Source: Flavobacteriaceae bacterium
GTDB taxonomy: Bacteria > Bacteroidota > Bacteroidia > Flavobacteriales > Weeksellaceae
Length of the DNA stretch: 33,992 nucleotides
Assembly (NCBI GenBank): GCA_012522185.1
Contig: JAAYKY010000050.1
Coordinates: 1 to 33,992 of the forward strand
Reading direction: 5' to 3'
The notes under the pieces were generated by a model. That model had not been told where the DNA came from. It worked only from the letters and a program-made list of their open reading frames with translations, and searched no databases. Each line of letters opens with the position of its first letter. The stretch's first letter is position 1. Shown here piece by piece: positions 13,352-32,475 of the stretch. Made by a program: the position numbers and the translations under genes.

Positions 13352-14959
13352 TTAAAATGTATAAGCTTTGATTATTTGTGCTGAAAATGTTTCCTTTTGA
13401 CTTCTATTTGGTACTTGTAGAAATATGGAATAACCCGAATTATTTGAGATGGTTTCCGACCAAGTTTGTGTACCTGAAATTACCGTTAAAAGATTTCCTT
13501 GTTTAATAAATATCACAGACCCCGAAAGCGGATTGGGAACATAAACCGTACTCGTTCCGAGTAGCTTTTTACCTATTCCGCCACCTGAATAACTTGTATT
13601 GGTAGCCAAATAATTCAGCTGTGAATAAGCCAACTGATTTACAGTTGAAGAGTAACCAACGCCTATCCTTGAATGGTAGTTGGATGTTGGCGATATAGCA
13701 GCAAACGAATTGTCAATTAACAATTCTAAATACCAATCTTCGCCCATCGCAAACAATTCGCTTGATTTAGCGGAAAAAATGGGAGTTGATGTAACGGAGC
13801 CTTGAATTTCATTTTCAAAAACGACCGTATCGGGAGTTCCATAACTTAAAGTATTTGGATAGCTTGTAAGTATATCAAATACGTTTGTCTTTAAATCAAT
13901 GTTGGTAATTTTACTTACAATCTGAAAATTCAATGAGGTCACATAGGCGGAAACCCCTGATGTGAGTCTTAATTTATAGGTGCCTACTCCAAGCGAGTAA
14001 AAGTTGTAGAAAAAAACAAGCTCAGTCCCGGAAGCATAGGTTTGAATTTGAGATACCGGAACTTCCGCCAATACTGCTTGAGTGGTGGCGTTTAAAATTT
14101 CAATTTTTCTATTGGTAGGATGCAGGTTTAAATTTGCACCCCGCAAAACAAGGTAAATGTTATTGTTTTCAAGTTCAAAGATGGGAGGCGAAATCAAATT
14201 GACCGCCATCGTTCCGGTTGAGAAACCGCCGTTAAGTATTTGAGTGAACTCTTGCTTTTGCGCAGAAGTCCAATTTTCAGCCTGCAACTTGAAAGCCGGA
14301 TAACCTATTTTAGCAACTTGTCCAGTTGCGTTTTTACCCATAAAATCGGTAAAAGTCGCATCGGTTGATTTATTGGGTAATTCAGCTATTGAAAAGGGAA
14401 ATCCGTTAGTATCTAATACTCGAGGTTCTAAAATTTCCAGATCAGTATTTCCAATGTTTTTTCCTAAATCATTAGCCGGAAGCTTTGCCACATCACCCTC
14501 TTCATCCATGCCTATGACATATTGATAATCTTCAGAAGATCCTTCATTTTCCGGCTTTGACATTTTATTTCCAATTGCCTCATCTTGCGACTCAAACTTC
14601 GTGGCCACCGTTTCATTGAAATCAGCTTGGTTGTTTTCGGCTGTCAATCCCAAATATTCGTGATCTTCTGTGAGCCCCACCTCATCATCATTCACTTCTG
14701 CTGAAAGATTCAGCGCCGACTGCCACGCCGCAACGTTTTCCTCAGTCAAATTAGATGCATTTATGTCTGCATACCCATCATGACCGTGGTCAGTGTCTGA
14801 CTTATTTCCCAAAGCTTCGTCCAGTCCACCAATAGAACTAATAGGAATTTCGTCCTCTTTATGCCAATACGAGTCCATCCAATGCCAAAAGTGTTCCTGT
14901 GCTGGTTTCAGCCCGTTTTTAAACCAGTTTTTAATTTGATTTATAGATGTTACTGCCAT
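13352..14959 (-). CDS. Tail fibre / receptor-binding protein
   Basis: 535 residues. The N-terminus (INQIKNWFKNGLKPAQEHFW, then HWMDSYWHKEDEIPISSIGGL) is the pattern I associate with virion-attachment ends of tail fibres in Bacteroidota phages. A repetitive linker follows. The remaining 350 residues are beta-rich and end in a compact aromatic domain (YSIFLQVPN to KAYTF), likely the receptor-binding tip. It lies directly after the collar-domain fibre gene with a 2-bp gap. The host surface target is unknown. Confidence 0.78.
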   Translation of the reverse strand: MAVTSINQIKNWFKNGLKPAQEHFWHWMDSYWHKEDEIPISSIGGLDEALGNKSDTDHGHDGYADINASNLTEENVAAWQSALNLSAEVNDDEVGLTEDHEYLGLTAENNQADFNETVATKFESQDEAIGNKMSKPENEGSSEDYQYVIGMDEEGDVAKLPANDLGKNIGNTDLEILEPRVLDTNGFPFSIAELPNKSTDATFTDFMGKNATGQVAKIGYPAFKLQAENWTSAQKQEFTQILNGGFSTGTMAVNLISPPIFELENNNIYLVLRGANLNLHPTNRKIEILNATTQAVLAEVPVSQIQTYASGTELVFFYNFYSLGVGTYKLRLTSGVSAYVTSLNFQIVSKITNIDLKTNVFDILTSYPNTLSYGTPDTVVFENEIQGSVTSTPIFSAKSSELFAMGEDWYLELLIDNSFAAISPTSNYHSRIGVGYSSTVNQLAYSQLNYLATNTSYSGGGIGKKLLGTSTVYVPNPLSGSVIFIKQGNLLTVISGTQTWSETISNNSGYSIFLQVPNRSQKETFSAQIIKAYTF

Positions 14960-18298: not shown

Positions 18299-18784
18299 TC
18301 ATTGCATTAATTGATTTAACAATTGGTTTTGCTGAACCAATACCGCTACATCATCCGGTGAAAAACTTCCCGGTCCACTGGGTGTAATTATGATTGCATT
18401 TTGAAGGGTTTCAAATGTTGTATTTAAAATTCCCTTCAGATCAGCCACATTGTTTTTGATTGAAAACTTTCCGTCTTTCATTTCAAAAATCTGATCACCC
18501 ATTTTTATAATTACCCTGTCTATTTCTGAATACTTCAGTATGAATGGGGTGTCTTCATTTTCAATTTTACCCAGTAGAACTTTGCTGCCGACTTTTGGGT
18601 ATACGGTGATTTGACTATCCAGGTCATCAATGATCGAATTCAATCGCACTTCTTCGATGTCATCAACTTGACAAGTATCACCATCAATGGATTTCACTAC
18701 GCCGATTCCGGTTTGGTGCTTCATCCGAGTACCGGCATTTCTGCTTTTGCTCACAGCTTCTTTGAATACTTCTGCAAAACTCAT
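18299..18784 (-). CDS. Baseplate spike protein (gpV / Mu gp45-like)
   Basis: 161 residues. An N-terminal OB-fold-like region has alternating strands (TGIGVVKSIDGDTCQVDDIE, then VYPKVGSKVLLGKIEN), followed by a repetitive beta segment (VIIKMGDQIFEMKDGKFSIK) like the beta-helix of puncturing spikes, and a helical end. It would form the trimeric tip that crosses the outer membrane on sheath contraction. It overlaps the hub gene by 4 bp, matching the Mu gp44-gp45 order. Confidence 0.75.
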   Translation of the reverse strand: MSFAEVFKEAVSKSRNAGTRMKHQTGIGVVKSIDGDTCQVDDIEEVRLNSIIDDLDSQITVYPKVGSKVLLGKIENEDTPFILKYSEIDRVIIKMGDQIFEMKDGKFSIKNNVADLKGILNTTFETLQNAIIITPSGPGSFSPDDVAVLVQQNQLLNQLMQ

Positions 18785-19788
18785 AGCTTATAAGAAAGTT
18801 TATTGGTTCTACGTATTCCGGAATCACCGTTTAAATCAATAGTGACCGCTTCTATAAAATACCGACCGTTTTGATGACCATCTTCATAAATCGGTCGATA
18901 TATTTCGGCTGAATCACCCGGCTGCGTTCTTGGTTCACACCAGGAATTCAAGCTACCTTCAAAACCATCTATTGAACGACTTTTATAAATTTGTTCCGCC
19001 CACTTTTTCAGATCAGCTTTGGTCATATTTGGAACCATTGACATATTGACTGTGTTTCCGCCTTTTTCGCCAACGGTTTCCGATAATTCTTCACCGTTTT
19101 TTTGCCGTGATTTAACAGTCACTTCCAAAAGCTTATCATCTTTCCGCTCAAAACTCAAATCAGTATCGCGGCGAACGTTTTCGCTGAAATTAAACTGATG
19201 AACATCGCGCGGTTTAAAATCCACTTTCATTCCTACACTTAATGTATCGGGCGTTATAAAATAAGCGCGTAAACCTGTGCGTTCTTTCAGTTCTTCCAGG
19301 ACTTCATAGGGTGTAGCATTGTCAATGTGCCAGGAACCGTAATTGTAGTCTTCATTCAATTCAATATTGTATTTGGAAGGAATGACAGCTTTCAATATTT
19401 CAATCAGGCTTCCGGATTTGATGTATTTAGTTATACGCGGTGCTTTTTTCAATTGATACATTTCGTCTTCACACTCCAAAACCAATGGCGTATCCGCGCC
19501 GATTTTCGTGATATATCCCTGGAATTCTGTTTGGTTGTTACCATCATAGCCCAAAGAAATTTGTATAGAATCACCGCGCTTCATAAAGTCCAAAATGGAC
19601 TTATAAGAAAAGTCCAATGGATTACCATTTGAATCTTCACCATTCTTGAATTCTCGCGGCAATGTAATTTTGGCTGTGTTGGTCAGAACTTCCACACTCT
19701 TTTCGATTTTGATGGATTCGCATACATCAAAAACAAGATTGTTAGCGATGATAACCTGCATTGTGATATTGAAAAACAAGTAATTCAT
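18781..19788 (-). CDS. Baseplate hub protein (gpD / Mu gp44-like)
   Basis: 335 residues, beta-rich, with the layout of tail hub proteins: an initial strand set, SIQISLGYDGNNQTEFQGYI, a LKKAPRITKYIKSGSLIEIL insert, TPYEVLEELKERTGLRAYF, and late YKSRSIDGFEGSLNSWCEP with RTQPGDSAEI, which is typical of the gpD family. The start overlaps the upstream stop as TGATG; Met10 is a less likely alternative. The trimer would cap the tube and hold the spike. Confidence 0.82.
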   Translation of the reverse strand: MNYLFFNITMQVIIANNLVFDVCESIKIEKSVEVLTNTAKITLPREFKNGEDSNGNPLDFSYKSILDFMKRGDSIQISLGYDGNNQTEFQGYITKIGADTPLVLECEDEMYQLKKAPRITKYIKSGSLIEILKAVIPSKYNIELNEDYNYGSWHIDNATPYEVLEELKERTGLRAYFITPDTLSVGMKVDFKPRDVHQFNFSENVRRDTDLSFERKDDKLLEVTVKSRQKNGEELSETVGEKGGNTVNMSMVPNMTKADLKKWAEQIYKSRSIDGFEGSLNSWCEPRTQPGDSAEIYRPIYEDGHQNGRYFIEAVTIDLNGDSGIRRTNKLSYKL

Positions 19789-20396
19789 CAGCTTATTCCC
19801 ATATTTGGATTCAACAAAGTAAAGTTGACAGCCTTGATGCTTTTCGCTTCGATATTTACCTGGATAGTGTCCTGAAACCCTTCAACCGGCGCAAACTCAA
19901 TCCGGGTAAAATAAATGCTATCAATGTCCTTTTCTTCGAACTGCACACCGATTGCTTTCACAACTCCGTTATGCTTCCAGTTTTGATTGAGTCGACGTAT
20001 TTCATCACTTGGATAAATTCTGTTATCCACATCAATCAAAATTCCGCGAATGCTCAAATCATAAGGTTTGGTTCCCCAACGTTCGATAACGATCCCATCC
20101 GAATCGTTTACTTCAGTTTCGACTAAAGTTTTTTCCTGGCTAAATGTGATAATTAAAGGAGGCGCAAAGATGTTTCCAGATTCTCCTTTTAGTAAGGTTC
20201 CAAACTCTAAAGGTTCCAGTTCCGGAACTTCAAACTTGATGTATTCAAAATCCGGCTCTTCGAAAGGATATGATTCCAGTCCGTATTCTTTTGGAGCGCC
20301 CTGAAGCCTTTCAGCAACCGAATTGGAAATATAGCCAACTGCTAACATTCCGAAAGCGGCGGCATATCTTTCCTTTAAATTAATTGTTCGGCTCAT
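19788..20396 (-). CDS. DUF6046 tail protein
   Basis: 202 residues matching what I know as DUF6046 of Bacteroidota phages: FEPDFEYIKF-like pattern, APPLIITFSQEKTLVETEV, RWGTKPYDLSIRGILIDVDN and YPSDEIRRLNQ. It sits between the frameshifted chaperone and the hub, the place of Mu gpN (tail/DNA circulation protein). Its ATG directly follows the stop of the chaperone extension. The role in tube-baseplate joining is inferred from position. Confidence 0.75.
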   Translation of the reverse strand: MSRTINLKERYAAAFGMLAVGYISNSVAERLQGAPKEYGLESYPFEEPDFEYIKFEVPELEPLEFGTLLKGESGNIFAPPLIITFSQEKTLVETEVNDSDGIVIERWGTKPYDLSIRGILIDVDNRIYPSDEIRRLNQNWKHNGVVKAIGVQFEEKDIDSIYFTRIEFAPVEGFQDTIQVNIEAKSIKAVNFTLLNPNMGIS

Positions 20397-20594
20397 TTAC
20401 TGTAATTCTTCTTTTGTGGGAAAAAACGTTCGTCTTATATACCTTGCCTGTGCCCATTTAGCAGCCCAGGTATCATCATCCAGCTGTTCCGGAAAGGGAA
20501 TGTGGAGTAGATGGCTAATCATTGCATCAATGATAAAAATGCTGTCTAATCCACTTTCACTGGATAGTTCCGGCCAGCTGTCTAATACTTTTTT
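20397..20594 (-). CDS. Tail chaperone extension made by -1 frameshift (T part)
   Basis: A 65-codon open frame with no plausible own start upstream. It begins at the slippery heptamer A AAA AAG (20594-20588), two codons before the end of the 110-residue chaperone. After a -1 slip the ribosome reads K-K-V-L-D-S-W-P and continues through SISHLL-like helices, LDDDTWAAKWAQARYIRRTF and KEELQ to a TAA that abuts the next ATG. The fusion would be about 172 residues. This copies the G / GT tail-chaperone logic of lambda and Mu gp41-42. Confidence 0.85.
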   Translation of the reverse strand, partial: KKVLDSWPELSSESGLDSIFIIDAMISHLLHIPFPEQLDDDTWAAKWAQARYIRRTFFPTKEELQ

Positions 20595-20914
20595 GTCTTA
20601 CCGTCTCTGATTGGGATTAATTCAGAGATTTGAGACACAGCTGTAAAGAATAAATGATCATCTCCTAACACCTGATCTTTGTGCGTTAATACGCAGTTTT
20701 TAACCAGGATCTCAAACGCCTTTTTGGGGTTGGTTTGCTGAAAACGCAGGTATTGCCCCATGACATTTCTATCAGGTACGCACACAACTATTTCCAAAAA
20801 TTCAGAATTACTTTCATCAAGCGGTAATTCTACACGTCTAAGATTTGCAACGCCACCAGCTTTTTCAATTTCTGAAGCTGAAAGTTCCGTTACTTTAATT
20901 TCCTCTTTTTTCAT
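20582..20914 (-). CDS. Tail assembly chaperone (G part)
   Basis: 110 residues, soluble, starting MKKEEIKVTELSASEIEKAG, with a beta segment VRRVELPLDE-like followed by helices (MGQYLRFQQTNPKKAFEILV). This is the pattern of phage tail chaperone G proteins that coat the tape measure before tube assembly. The last codons ACA AAA AAG TAT TAG contain a classic -1 slippery site leading into the extension frame. It lies after the tube gene, as expected. The tape measure, usually next, is absent here and found in the other arm. Confidence 0.82.
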   Translation of the reverse strand: MKKEEIKVTELSASEIEKAGGVANLRRVELPLDESNSEFLEIVVCVPDRNVMGQYLRFQQTNPKKAFEILVKNCVLTHKDQVLGDDHLFFTAVSQISELIPIRDGKTKKY

Positions 20915-20920
20915 TGTTTT

Positions 20921-20945
20921 ATTGTTTTTAAATTTGGTTTAAACT
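20921..20945 (-). promoter_or_regulatory. TTTAAA-pair leader element before the chaperone
   Basis: The minus strand carries TTTAAACC followed by AAATTTAAAA, close to the exact element found before the portal gene and the last plus-strand gene. It may be a translation enhancer or regulator site. Confidence 0.35.
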
Positions 20946-20949
20946 TGAA

Positions 20950-21366
20950 TTAAACATTCAGGTTAACTTCCATCGCAAACATTTCGTACGATAGTTTTAA
21001 ACCCATTTCACCGGTTACTTCACGACCTTCTCTTTGGAACTGAAGCAACAGCGTATCCTGAACCACTTCATTGAATTCGTTAGCGAAAACAATCACCACA
21101 TCAAAGGGTTTGACGTTGAGCAAACCACCAACAGAGGCGGCGGCTTTTTCCAAAGGCGCAATGTCATGCATCATGATACCCATCGTACAGCTTGGAGTAA
21201 TTTTACCACGACTCCAGGAAGTAGCTTTGTTTTTCAATGTGTGATTCAATTGCTTTTCCTGCTCGTTTCCGTAACTGATGTCAGTCAATTCTATTTCCAC
21301 ACCGTTGATGTACGCAGTTGCATCACCGCTGTCATAGGCCTTTCCGTTTCTGATAATTGTAGCCAT
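20950..21366 (-). CDS. Tail tube protein (Mu gpM-like)
   Basis: 138 residues with a tube-fold pattern. It starts MATIIRNGKAYDSGDATAYI and VEIELTDISYG, then KITPSCTMGIMMHDIA and a final beta set KLSYEMFAMEVNLNV. It directly follows the sheath gene (one shared base at stop and start), as in all Mu/P2-like phages. Hexameric rings stack inside the sheath to form the inner tube. Confidence 0.85.
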   Translation of the reverse strand: MATIIRNGKAYDSGDATAYINGVEIELTDISYGNEQEKQLNHTLKNKATSWSRGKITPSCTMGIMMHDIAPLEKAAASVGGLLNVKPFDVVIVFANEFNEVVQDTLLLQFQREGREVTGEMGLKLSYEMFAMEVNLNV

Positions 21367-22610
21367 TAGATTCTTTGTTTTAGATTAATAGTTCCATTCA
21401 GATAACCAATTACACCGGTTGGCTGTAGGTTGAAGCCTACAATCAATTCCTTTTCTACCATGATATCGCTATCCGGATCAATCGTTGTTTTTCCATTAGA
21501 GATTTCAGCAGCATTCTGCATATCACCAAAAACAGCATCACCCACTAACTCCAGGGAGGTTCTTACACCCACTGGAAGTTTACCGTCGGTTCCTACCGGA
21601 TAAGTCTTTTTGATTTTCGGCAAATAAACGGTTCTCAATTGGCGGCGTGCATCATCAAGGATTCGCCCATACGCAATAGTGTGCTCGTTCATGTTACCTT
21701 CCTGGTCAATCTCAATCGGCGCGCAAACGTGATCATTATTAATTCTCACGCCAGCAAGCCCGGCGTATTCCAAACCGAAAACATAACCCTTGTCTTCAAA
21801 GGTTTGAAGCTGTGAATAAACTTCATCGTTTTTCTTGTGGTTTGACAAGCCGGGTACCATCCAGGCATTTCGGGTTGCATCAGTCAAATCAAACTCTTCG
21901 TTATCACCAATGTTTTGATTAATACGAGCGGCTGAACAAACTCCAAGCACAGTTCCGACATCTGCAAACTTTTGCGCGATTCCGGTTTTTGTTTCGGCAT
22001 AAGCCCAATCCTGACCGATCACATAAGTTACCTTTGTGGCTTTTACGTTTTCGATATCTCTCAGATCAGGAACCACGTTTGCAGCACCTGAAAGGTTGTG
22101 ACCTTCTAAGAATATCTGCAAAGGCATGTGATTTTCATCAGCCCATGCATACAAGCCCTGAGCGGCCGCGATAGCTGTTAATGCATCATCAGGCAGGCCG
22201 TCGACCGGCGTGGGAGTTTCATCCGGATTTAGACATACACCCAATTGGCGAACATCGTGCTTAGCAAATGCCAATAGCCTTTTAGCCATTGTTTCGGAAG
22301 CATCGGCCAAAATAGTTCCAAATGTTTCCGCTTGATCTACCAGCATGAAATGTAATTCTGTGCCAGCGCCTGCCATTCTGAAAAATTCAGAAAAATGTCG
22401 GTAAACGTTTAAGTTGTTTGTGCTGTCAAATTCAGGTGTGATCCCGTATTGTTCAAGGTCTTCAATATTATACACCGTTTGTGGTGTATTTAAAGCCAGG
22501 TCGGCAGAAGCAACCGAACCGATAATGAGTGCAGAAACTGCACGTTTAACGTTCCGGCGGTTTGCTCCCACCTTTCCTTTCTGTATTGTTACTCCATTAA
22601 TGTTGCTCAT
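21366..22610 (-). CDS. Contractile tail sheath (DUF2586)
   Basis: 414 residues. N-terminal VTIQKGKVGANRRNVKRAV, a middle domain with FRMAGAGTELHFMLVDQAET, and a C-terminal part with AYGRILDDARRQLRTVYLP and PTGVIGYLNGTINLKQRI match the DUF2586 sheath family of Mu-like phages in Bacteroidota. It proves a contractile (myovirus-like) tail. A 27-bp gap separates it from the acidic protein gene upstream. Confidence 0.88.
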   Translation of the reverse strand: MSNINGVTIQKGKVGANRRNVKRAVSALIIGSVASADLALNTPQTVYNIEDLEQYGITPEFDSTNNLNVYRHFSEFFRMAGAGTELHFMLVDQAETFGTILADASETMAKRLLAFAKHDVRQLGVCLNPDETPTPVDGLPDDALTAIAAAQGLYAWADENHMPLQIFLEGHNLSGAANVVPDLRDIENVKATKVTYVIGQDWAYAETKTGIAQKFADVGTVLGVCSAARINQNIGDNEEFDLTDATRNAWMVPGLSNHKKNDEVYSQLQTFEDKGYVFGLEYAGLAGVRINNDHVCAPIEIDQEGNMNEHTIAYGRILDDARRQLRTVYLPKIKKTYPVGTDGKLPVGVRTSLELVGDAVFGDMQNAAEISNGKTTIDPDSDIMVEKELIVGFNLQPTGVIGYLNGTINLKQRI

Positions 22611-27985: not shown

Positions 27986-27991
27986 TATTCC

Positions 27992-28012
27992 GATTTAAAA
28001 CCGATTTAAAAT
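27992..28012 (+). repeat. TTTAAA tandem element, copy 1
   Basis: Two GATTTAAAA units separated by CC, ending in T. An identical 21-bp copy lies at 32943-32963. Both are just upstream of a gene start. Confidence 0.6.
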
Positions 28013-28043
28013 TGATTTTTAGAAACTATATGAATAAAATAGT

Positions 28044-30708: not shown

Positions 30709-32475
30709 ATGGCCGCAAAATCAAAATTAGAACTAATACTGGAGTTGTCAGATAGGCTGTTTAATAATAAGCTGAATCGGGTAACTCAAAAGCTTGATGG
30801 CGCCGTTAATCGTATGCAAGGCAGATTGAGCCGATTCCGAAATGTGGCGGCGGCGGAGTTGTCCCGGCCAATTGATGTTTGGAGTGGTTTAGGCTTTGGT
30901 ATTCTCGCAGGTGTGGGTATGTCAATATTGACAATGGTCACGGGCGCCATAAGTGGTTTAGCCGGTGAAGCGATTAATTCGGTCGATGCTTTAAAGAAAT
31001 TCGAATCAACCATGGGGTTTGCCGGCTTCAATCCGGGCGTTATTCAAAACGCCGCCGCCGATGTCAAAAAATATGCCGATGATACCGTGTATGATTTGAC
31101 TACAATTGCCAACACGACGGCACAGCTGGCGGCCAATGGAATCAAAGATTTCACGGGATTGACACAAGCTGCCGGAAACTTAAATGCTGTGGCCGGTGGG
31201 AATGCGAACACATTCCGTTCGGTGGCAATGATGTTGACACAAACAGCCGGTGCAGGAAAATTAACGACTGAAAATTGGAACCAATTGGCCAATGCCATAC
31301 CTGGGGCTTCAGGAAAACTCCAGGAAGCTTTGCGACAAAATGGTGCCTATACCGGAAACTTCCGGGATGCTATGGAAAAGGGGTTGATTACAGCCGATAA
31401 GTTTAACGCTGCCATTATGCAGCTTGGCATGGACCCAATAGCAGTTGAGGCGGCTAAATCTACCGAAACCTTTGAAGGGGCATTGGGACAATTGCAGGCA
31501 AGTATAGTTGATGCATTTTCCGGATTAATTGAAAAAATTGGAATGGATAACATTACTGGCGCTATTAATTATTTGACCGAATCGGTTGGGAAAGTGGCCG
31601 GTGCTATAAATTGGCTCATTGATGAATTCAATGCCGGAAATCCTATAATTGGAATGACTGTAGGCATTCTCACCGCTTTAATTACGGGTATAATTGCTTA
31701 TAAACTGTACATCGGTGCAATTACATTGGTCACACAAGCATGGACAGCCGCGCAATGGTTGTTAAATATAGCAATGGATGCAAATCCAATTGGATTGGTA
31801 ATATTGGCCATTGCTACCCTAATTGCATTGGTTTATACGGCAATACAGAAATACGACGAATGGGGAGCCGCCTTGCTTCAGTTTATGGGACCGATAGGGA
31901 TGGTGATAAATGCTTTCAAATCCATTTATGATCATTGGGAAAGCATCAAAGAAGCTTTCAAAACAGATGGAATAATTGGTGGCCTTAAAAGGTTACGGCT
32001 TGTGTTAATAGACGCCGTTTTGAAACCTATTCAGCAGATATTTCAAATGATTGCTGAATTCGACCCAACTGGAATGGCTGACAAAGCTTTGGAAAGAATC
32101 AAAGCCTTCAGGGAAGGAAACAATCTTGTAACTGAAGGCGAACGTATGGCCAACCAAGGCGATCAGGTTGCTTTTAATCCATTGGGCTTCTATAATATGG
32201 GCAAAGAAGCCATCAATATGTATGCTGCAAGAACGCCCGATTCCGGAACCGGAAAAGGACGTGCTGAAGGTGTGAAAAAGGCTAAAGATGATATCAATAA
32301 AGTGTCCGGAAAATCAAACCAGGTGCGTTATATGAATATCAAATTTGAAGCTTTTAATAAAGGCGATATCAATGTGAACAACGGTTCAGGAACCAGTGGA
32401 ATGACGCCTGATGATTTGGAAAGATGGTTTACCGAAATGATGATGCGTGTAATTGCAAATGCCGAAAATGGATAA
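30709..32475 (+). CDS. Tail tape measure protein
   Basis: 588 residues. The tape-measure core is clear at 95-270: LKKFESTMGFAGFNPGVI, TIANTTAQLAANGIKDFTGL, FRSVAMMLTQTAGAGKLTTE and NWNQLANAIPGASGKLQEAL. Hydrophobic segments (IIGMTVGILTALITGIIAYK, then a second at about 355-385) follow, as in proteins that insert into the host membrane. Its length should set the tail length. It is oddly placed in the head arm, on the opposite strand from chaperone and tube. Confidence 0.9.
   Translation: MAAKSKLELILELSDRLFNNKLNRVTQKLDGAVNRMQGRLSRFRNVAAAELSRPIDVWSGLGFGILAGVGMSILTMVTGAISGLAGEAINSVDALKKFESTMGFAGFNPGVIQNAAADVKKYADDTVYDLTTIANTTAQLAANGIKDFTGLTQAAGNLNAVAGGNANTFRSVAMMLTQTAGAGKLTTENWNQLANAIPGASGKLQEALRQNGAYTGNFRDAMEKGLITADKFNAAIMQLGMDPIAVEAAKSTETFEGALGQLQASIVDAFSGLIEKIGMDNITGAINYLTESVGKVAGAINWLIDEFNAGNPIIGMTVGILTALITGIIAYKLYIGAITLVTQAWTAAQWLLNIAMDANPIGLVILAIATLIALVYTAIQKYDEWGAALLQFMGPIGMVINAFKSIYDHWESIKEAFKTDGIIGGLKRLRLVLIDAVLKPIQQIFQMIAEFDPTGMADKALERIKAFREGNNLVTEGERMANQGDQVAFNPLGFYNMGKEAINMYAARTPDSGTGKGRAEGVKKAKDDINKVSGKSNQVRYMNIKFEAFNKGDINVNNGSGTSGMTPDDLERWFTEMMMRVIANAENG

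Follow-up and report, generated by a model that had tools for sequence, protein, structure and literature searches.

Our goal was to decide whether a small gene in the tail region of a Bacteroidota phage is made in two forms, the longer one by ribosomes that would shift back by a single base near the gene end and go on into an overlapping frame. The phage lies on the window, by which we mean the whole stretch of DNA that was analysed, one whole contig of 33,992 bases from a 2.55 Mb genome, and it is a Mu-like phage of a Bacteroidota bacterium. Its minus-strand late genes include a protease, the major head protein, the sheath (DUF2586), a tube-like protein, the gene in question (G), the frame behind it (T), a DUF6046 gene and the baseplate hub, and the plus strand carries the terminase, portal, head morphogenesis and 588-aa tape measure genes. 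The two protein forms are very probably produced here by a -1 slip at the gene end, a trick already known from phage lambda, and we regard it as highly likely that G and its -1 extension T are a tail-assembly chaperone pair of the lambda G/GT type. The frameshift is of the ordinary G/GT kind and well supported, and the family in which it occurs is unnamed in the libraries searched. The genes that surround it are these:

21366 to 22610, minus strand: tail sheath (DUF2586), from profile matches
20950 to 21366, minus strand: tail tube-like protein, 5' of G (phrog_4579, tail protein, E 4.9e-8)
20582 to 20914, minus strand: G, the zero-frame putative tail assembly chaperone, 110 aa (phrog_19076, E 5.6e-6, and place)
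19788 to 20396, minus strand: next gene, DUF6046 and baseplate hub-like, with its ATG (20396-20394) abutting the T stop
18781 to 19788, minus strand: baseplate hub (phrog_4930, E 8.2e-55)
30709 to 32475, plus strand: tail tape measure protein, 588 aa (PHROG tape-measure families; tblastn to annotated tape measure proteins)

G sits between the tail tube-like and baseplate genes. The gene 5' of it has a better match to phrog_9206 (E 6.1e-13), which carries the label major head protein, and its role in the tube is suggested by gene place. The tape measure gene is found among the plus-strand head genes, about 10 kb from G/GT and on the opposite strand, a point that the sequence-only reading had left unmentioned.

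The end of G and the frame behind it

In the zero frame the 3' end of G reads GGT AAG ACA AAA AAG TAT TAG, and the following features are found in and around it:

20598 to 20600, minus strand: TAA that closes the -1 frame on its upstream side, seen in the sequence
20588 to 20594, minus strand: slip heptamer A AAA AAG in the zero-frame register (ACA AAA AAG), seen in the sequence
20582 to 20584, minus strand: zero-frame stop TAG, one sense codon past the heptamer, seen in the sequence
20397 to 20588, minus strand: T extension, 63 codons and TAA, to be read after a -1 slip, seen in the sequence and with dN far below dS in relatives
20397 to 20914, minus strand: GT fusion predicted from the frames, 172 aa (109 G residues and 63 more)

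The -1 frame opens at GAC, 13 nt ahead of the G stop. The upstream TAA shuts it there, and thus the two frames can be joined only by a shift within these 13 nt, of which the heptamer fills seven. T ends at a TAA (20399-20397) that directly abuts the ATG of the next gene, and its translation in the -1 frame is KKVLDSWPELSSESGLDSIFIIDAMISHLLHIPFPEQLDDDTWAAKWAQARYIRRTFFPTKEELQ. The +1 frame past the G stop is open for 8 codons only. The sequence-only reading had placed the locus at 20397-20914, which is right, on the minus strand, and the A AAA AAG heptamer at the end of G and the abutting TAA that it had described are both present. Its frame of 65 codons is indeed open up to that TAA, but the count includes two lysines ahead of the slip, which itself adds 63 residues. 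It had also called T an extension that has no start codon. The frame holds a sole ATG/GTG/TTG codon, an ATG that lies 62 nt beyond the stop of G and upstream of the HIPFPEQLDDDTWA core.

In the mechanism that we propose, most ribosomes would halt at the TAG and release the 110-aa G. For a minority, tRNA-Lys(UUU) on the AAA and AAG of the heptamer would slip back one base, and these ribosomes would pass the TAG and read T to give the 172-aa GT, so that the efficiency of slippage would set the ratio of G to GT. By analogy with lambda, where neither G nor GT stays in the tail, G may form a coat on the tape measure protein, and GT may recruit tail tube subunits through its T part. The slippage is presumably translational, as in the lambda G/GT mechanism described in a review (PMC5009743), and the roles given to G and T are putative ones borrowed from that phage.

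An open frame behind a gene is not in itself strong evidence. From a random position, 62 open codons were reached in 72 of 5000 dinucleotide-shuffled trials, thus the openness of the T frame alone is only mildly unusual. The junction control in the window, which covered its 21 minus-strand late genes and considered those where the -1 or +1 frame stays open for at least 50 codons, is the stronger of the two. Every other such junction has an ATG or GTG at -44 to +5 of the stop, which is the ordinary next gene, and G is the sole exception. It is conservation among relatives that, as far as sequence can tell, settles the reality of the T frame.

Conservation and selection among relatives

Relatives were collected from both halves of the locus. 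The search with G gave 15 places in 14 of 197 family genomes, own genome included, 23 places in 21 of 395 order genomes, and 14 places, 3 of them new, in 395 phylum genomes; phage records were searched as well. T was searched in the 395 order genomes (17 places) and in phage records. Together these gave 45 distinct places, window included, of which 37 have a -1 T, five have no T, two have an extension in the +1/-2 frame and one (L038, a 447-aa unrelated protein) is a false match. When only the 42 homologous loci found through G are counted, again with the window, the -1 T is present in 35, absent in 5 and replaced by the +1/-2 frame in 2. The two further -1 T loci, L057 and L058, came from the search with T, and it is by position that G is recognised in them.

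The T-first search of the order genomes is a useful cross-check on this. Fifteen of its 17 places were T's already found through G, one was new (L057, a -1-frame T behind a G-like ORF) and one (L056) was a chance match and was dropped. The T profile recovered all 14 non-self -1 T's of the order-wide G search. One T, that of L073, is cut at the contig end after 39 codons and was assessed by eye. Beside FPSV-S1, the FPSV records H3, H4 and H6-H9 were not counted, and L061 was left out of the set. Two of the relatives' contigs come from Empedobacter tilapiae and E. sedimenti, which belong to the same family as the window genome (Weeksellaceae, Bacteroidota).

A further set of named and viral contigs has the -1 T in 11 of 11 loci, with ten canonical slip sites and one G GAA AAG. 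Seven of these loci were found through T and therefore test its frame and site, not its presence; the other four were found through G, among them L096, which is 92% identical in DNA to L020. The G of L094 is cut by the contig start. These 11 loci are what was counted of 21, after ten were dropped as copies or near-copies (L080/L008, L082/L009 and L084/L093 compared by script, the rest judged from how closely they matched, from the length of their contigs or from the printed results).

The sequence-only reading had staked itself on relatives not placing the second frame behind a start codon of its own, and what they carry is the -1 extension, two overlapping frames at the same offset, which is a trait of G/GT pairs. 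Over the same 15 loci the mean column identity is 49% for T and 44% for G. In ten pair comparisons nonsynonymous change per site in T is below synonymous change, with dN/dS of 0.03/0.83 (L011/L012), 0.11/1.92 (L019/L020), 0.07/1.42 (L006/L008) and 0.15/1.06 (L008/L009). The ratio is at most 0.14 in all six pairs with finite dS, and in the remaining four pairs dS is saturated. T is under purifying selection as a protein. The relatives decide the frameshift reading, and the observation is confirmed by them: the anatomy, the conserved -1 frame, the selection on T and the slip sites can all be read from the sequences.

One alternative is that T is a separate small protein that starts in its own frame by re-initiation after the G stop. 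The record of phage fF4 has such an ORF (QHJ72924, 47 aa), whose GTG start lies 50 nt downstream of the G stop, and the window has the ATG mentioned above. The start positions are not conserved, however. In 20 of 37 loci the part of the frame beyond 14 codons upstream of the core proline holds no ATG/GTG/TTG, in 33 of 37 it holds no ATG, and three loci (L022 and L027 of the 37, L098 of the further 11) have none of these codons anywhere in the T frame. Conservation of T starts at the slip site, and a separate protein leaves the slip sites unexplained. We consider this explanation very improbable.

There are also counterpoints to the frameshift itself, in that T is absent in five relatives and in another frame in two. 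The T-less G-like genes (L028, L029, L030, L031 and L039) all come from one genus, and they possibly belong to a tail-like particle that does without GT. L029 was counted as lacking T because its 304-codon -1 frame belongs to the gene that follows, which has an ATG of its own 41 nt beyond the stop; in L030 the relative of that next gene lies in another frame. In L030 the G-like gene is preceded by a DUF2586 sheath and a gene of tube size, and the protein encoded after it has a transglycosylase match below threshold. The two loci with the +1/-2 extension, L037 and L040, have 58 and 59 codons that look alike by eye. In these G ends GAG TTT TTT CGC GCT TAG, the -1 frame stays open for only 15-18 codons, and the extension is followed by an apparent tape measure start.

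Slip sites, hairpins and decoding

The slip signal at the end of G differs much more between relatives than its place does. A AAA AAG is found in 17 of the 37 loci, G GAA AAG in seven, G GGA AAG in four (L004, L005, L007 and L017), which we take to be the lambda heptamer, and A AAA AAT in three; A AAA AAC, T TTT TTG, A AAT TTT, G GTA AAG, G GTT TTT and G GGG GAA occur in one locus each. The site is a canonical XXXYYYZ in 27 of 37 loci and a weaker one in 10, where it is the most plausible site as chosen by the analyst. These ten are a further counterpoint, with poor re-pairing of the P-site tRNA to be expected at sites like G GAA AAG. The sequence-only reading had looked for conservation of heptamer and offset in relatives. 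The offset and the place are kept, but the exact heptamer is not.

In the window and most relatives there is thus a canonical slippery sequence in the zero-frame register within the overlap, as in other G/GT pairs. The Z base is 3 nt ahead of the stop in 30 of 37 loci, and the A AAA AAT of L074 lies 15 nt before it. For comparison, the mean distances from slip site to stop given for two phage sets in the PRFect paper are 26 and 36 nt, perhaps from another measuring point (PMC10885494). Of 34 loci, 20 have an XXXYYYZ within their final two codons, where 0.8 would be expected, and 24 have one within the final five (1.9 expected), while a YYYZ is present within the final five codons of all 34 (14.4 expected). 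The expectation was taken from the rest of the same genes, and the counts overstate independence because the loci are related and the lysine-rich ends of G were left uncorrected. A tree was built from 34 G proteins without their last ten residues; 13 of its 31 inner branches are weak, and L035, L036 and L058 were left outside for their longer G. The site type needs at least 14 changes on this tree. The mean for shuffled types is 18.6, thus the types are also clustered on the tree.

These sites also bear on a second alternative, in which RNA polymerase slips on the A run so that some transcripts carry an indel joining G and T. The A run is six long in the window and longer in L074 and L075, and slippage on long A runs is known in bacteria, but six is short when transcriptional realignment is placed at A runs above 7 (PMC3711429 for both points). 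The relatives with G GGA AAG, G GAA AAG and T TTT TTG keep the same offset, mostly without long runs, and we find slippage in transcription no easier to believe than the separate protein. That T is a decayed or mis-assembled gene end, with a real or sequencing indel splitting one gene, is the least credible of all, since the two frames do resemble one gene with a one-base shift but the same break and offset recur, in roughly the same position, in 37 loci that fall into 24 clusters and in the 11 more, separately sequenced phages included, and purifying selection on T contradicts decay.

With ribosomal frameshifting as the preferred reading, what is unusual is that the slip signal turns over while the frame offset stays fixed. 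We give about equal weight to accepting and to doubting a broader interpretation, in which a Bacteroidota-wide chaperone family keeps the -1 offset and the place of the shift while the slip signal (ten types), the hairpins and even the frame turn over. The frameshift would then outlive each particular signal that causes it, weak sites like G GAA AAG included, hairpins would be re-formed in different registers or be absent, and some branches would have gone to +1/-2 or have no T.

Hairpins were sought downstream of the sites. An ungapped stem that starts 4-9 nt past the site and is matched by at most 5% of shuffles is present in 14 of 37 loci, where about 2 would be expected. Eleven of the 28 far loci and three of the 9 close ones have such a stem; that of L026, for instance, is 12 bp long. 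In the 28 far relatives the mean folding z of 50-nt windows starting -15 to +8 nt of the site is -1.0 to -1.5, and elsewhere it is between -0.5 and +0.3; just past the site in the nine close loci, window included, it is -0.2 to +0.9. The contrast of close and far loci is descriptive, the split having been chosen after the first structure results. In the window and its nearest relatives the folding scans gave no clear downstream structure. One candidate of the window may be listed:

20559 to 20578, minus strand: weak possible hairpin of 5 bp (20578-20574 with 20563-20559), 9 nt past the heptamer, role doubtful

Two per cent of 60 shuffles give a stem as good as this one, and folding of the region is ordinary, with a z of -0.55 for the whole region and -0.17 for the 85 nt from the heptamer; only weak hairpins follow, as the sequence-only reading had said.

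Several other candidates for a stimulator were tried and set aside. A pseudoknot in the close clade is not convincing, with 15% of shuffles as good in the window and 0 to 57% in the other eight loci. Covariation in the hairpin of L019, L020 and L096-L098 (four distinct sequences) amounts to two double-changed pairs, a level reached in 59 of 500 shuffles, and is weak. The Rfam search returned only a sub-threshold microRNA match. An SD-like upstream stimulator is not clearly enriched, with a mean of 3.15 over a background of 2.70. Bacteroidota make little use of Shine-Dalgarno pairing. That the frameshift works in such hosts is part of the broader interpretation, and here too we are evenly divided.

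The decoding of the heptamer depends on the lysine tRNAs. When tRNA-Lys(UUU) is the only one, AAG is read by a tRNA that re-pairs well on AAA, which in E. coli is the condition for the slip at A AAA AAG. A tRNA-Lys(UUU) of the host was found by ARAGORN at the place indicated by a pattern search, and one pattern search of the host showed no tRNA-Lys(CUU) anticodon arm. The pattern search showed CTCTTAAT arms in 2 of 21 genomes searched. An earlier pattern pair had missed the real UUU gene of the host, so its silence counts little.

Function and comparison with known systems

The sequence-only reading had called G a tail chaperone, a putative role suggested by position and arrangement; neither G nor T matches anything named as a chaperone in PHROGs, Pfam, NCBIfam or PDB sequences. 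Among PHROGs, G matches phrog_19076 only, whose function is unnamed, as do all 15 aligned members; it has nothing plausible in Pfam and nothing in NCBIfam or PDB sequences. T has no PHROG match in 15 members and no PDB chain, the T of the window has no Pfam family, and in NCBIfam one of 18 T's weakly matches XkdX (E 0.0029). Gene finders miss the T half of the family.

Lambda is among the nearest known counterparts, and the pair shares with it the -1 offset and a small putative chaperone gene beside tail tube genes; in the relative FPSV-S1 the G/T stands just before the tape measure as well. According to the review, the lambda tape measure is bound by gpG and the tube protein by the T part (PMC5009743). 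The pair of the window differs from lambda in having no match to a named chaperone, in its A AAA AAG one codon before the stop, and in a tape measure on the other strand and far away. That the tape measure is not adjacent is another counterpoint, and because it is encoded elsewhere in the window GT cannot rely on being synthesised beside it. The fF4 paper reports that the place of the tape measure gene varies and that the contractile tail is about 95 nm (PMC7761591).

Phage Mu is like the window in its phage type, the window being Mu-like with a sheath gene. The Mu chaperone, however, uses a -2 shift according to the same review (PMC5009743), which bears out the earlier remark that Mu uses a different slip, whereas the shift is -1 in the window and +1/-2 in the relatives L037 and L040. 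E. coli dnaX has the A AAA AAG heptamer too, and several relatives of the window add a downstream hairpin as it does. It differs in its product and purpose and in its upstream SD-like stimulator (PMC3711429), a signal that here is not clearly above background.

A further comparison is with the Flavobacterium phages fF4 and FPSV-S1 (Winoviridae), which have G and a -1 T in a similar gene neighbourhood. The slip site is G GGA AAG in fF4 and A AAA AAG in FPSV-S1. The order in FPSV-S1 is sheath, a further gene, G by position (QCW20334), an unannotated T and the annotated tape measure, and the T profile matches the stretch between QCW20334 and the tape measure with an E-value of 1.3e-17. In the window G also follows a sheath and a tube-like gene, with the tape measure elsewhere, while that of FPSV-S1 directly follows T. 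The fF4 record names part of T as the 47-aa ORF (L017 6330-6473), and in FPSV-S1 T has no annotation (L058 3978-4162). A term search of the main text of the fF4 paper did not return the word frameshift (PMC7761591). In the open literature searched, which took in PMC8776804 and PMC8008677 and left most subscription papers outside, no report of a frameshift in this G/T family was found. The GeneTack frameshift scan covered 22 Bacteroidetes genomes (PMC3711429).

The suggestion that G-GT logic extends to a Bacteroidota phage with a -1 site is supported by the conserved -1 frame, the selection on T and the slip sites, and these carry the arrangement firmly into the phages of this phylum. They also point to a likely function for the unnamed family phrog_19076 and for the T domain, which is unnamed in the searched libraries and is missed or mis-called in two public records. 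The slip sites of the relatives, some followed by hairpins and others not, form a natural series that could be used to measure what determines frameshift efficiency in Bacteroidota.

As a minor observation, an AT-rich repeat of about 34 nt lies just 5' of G (20924-20957) and again at 14915-14948 and 27991-28024. Its copies are 71-74% identical to the reference copy, and the repeat may be due to chance.
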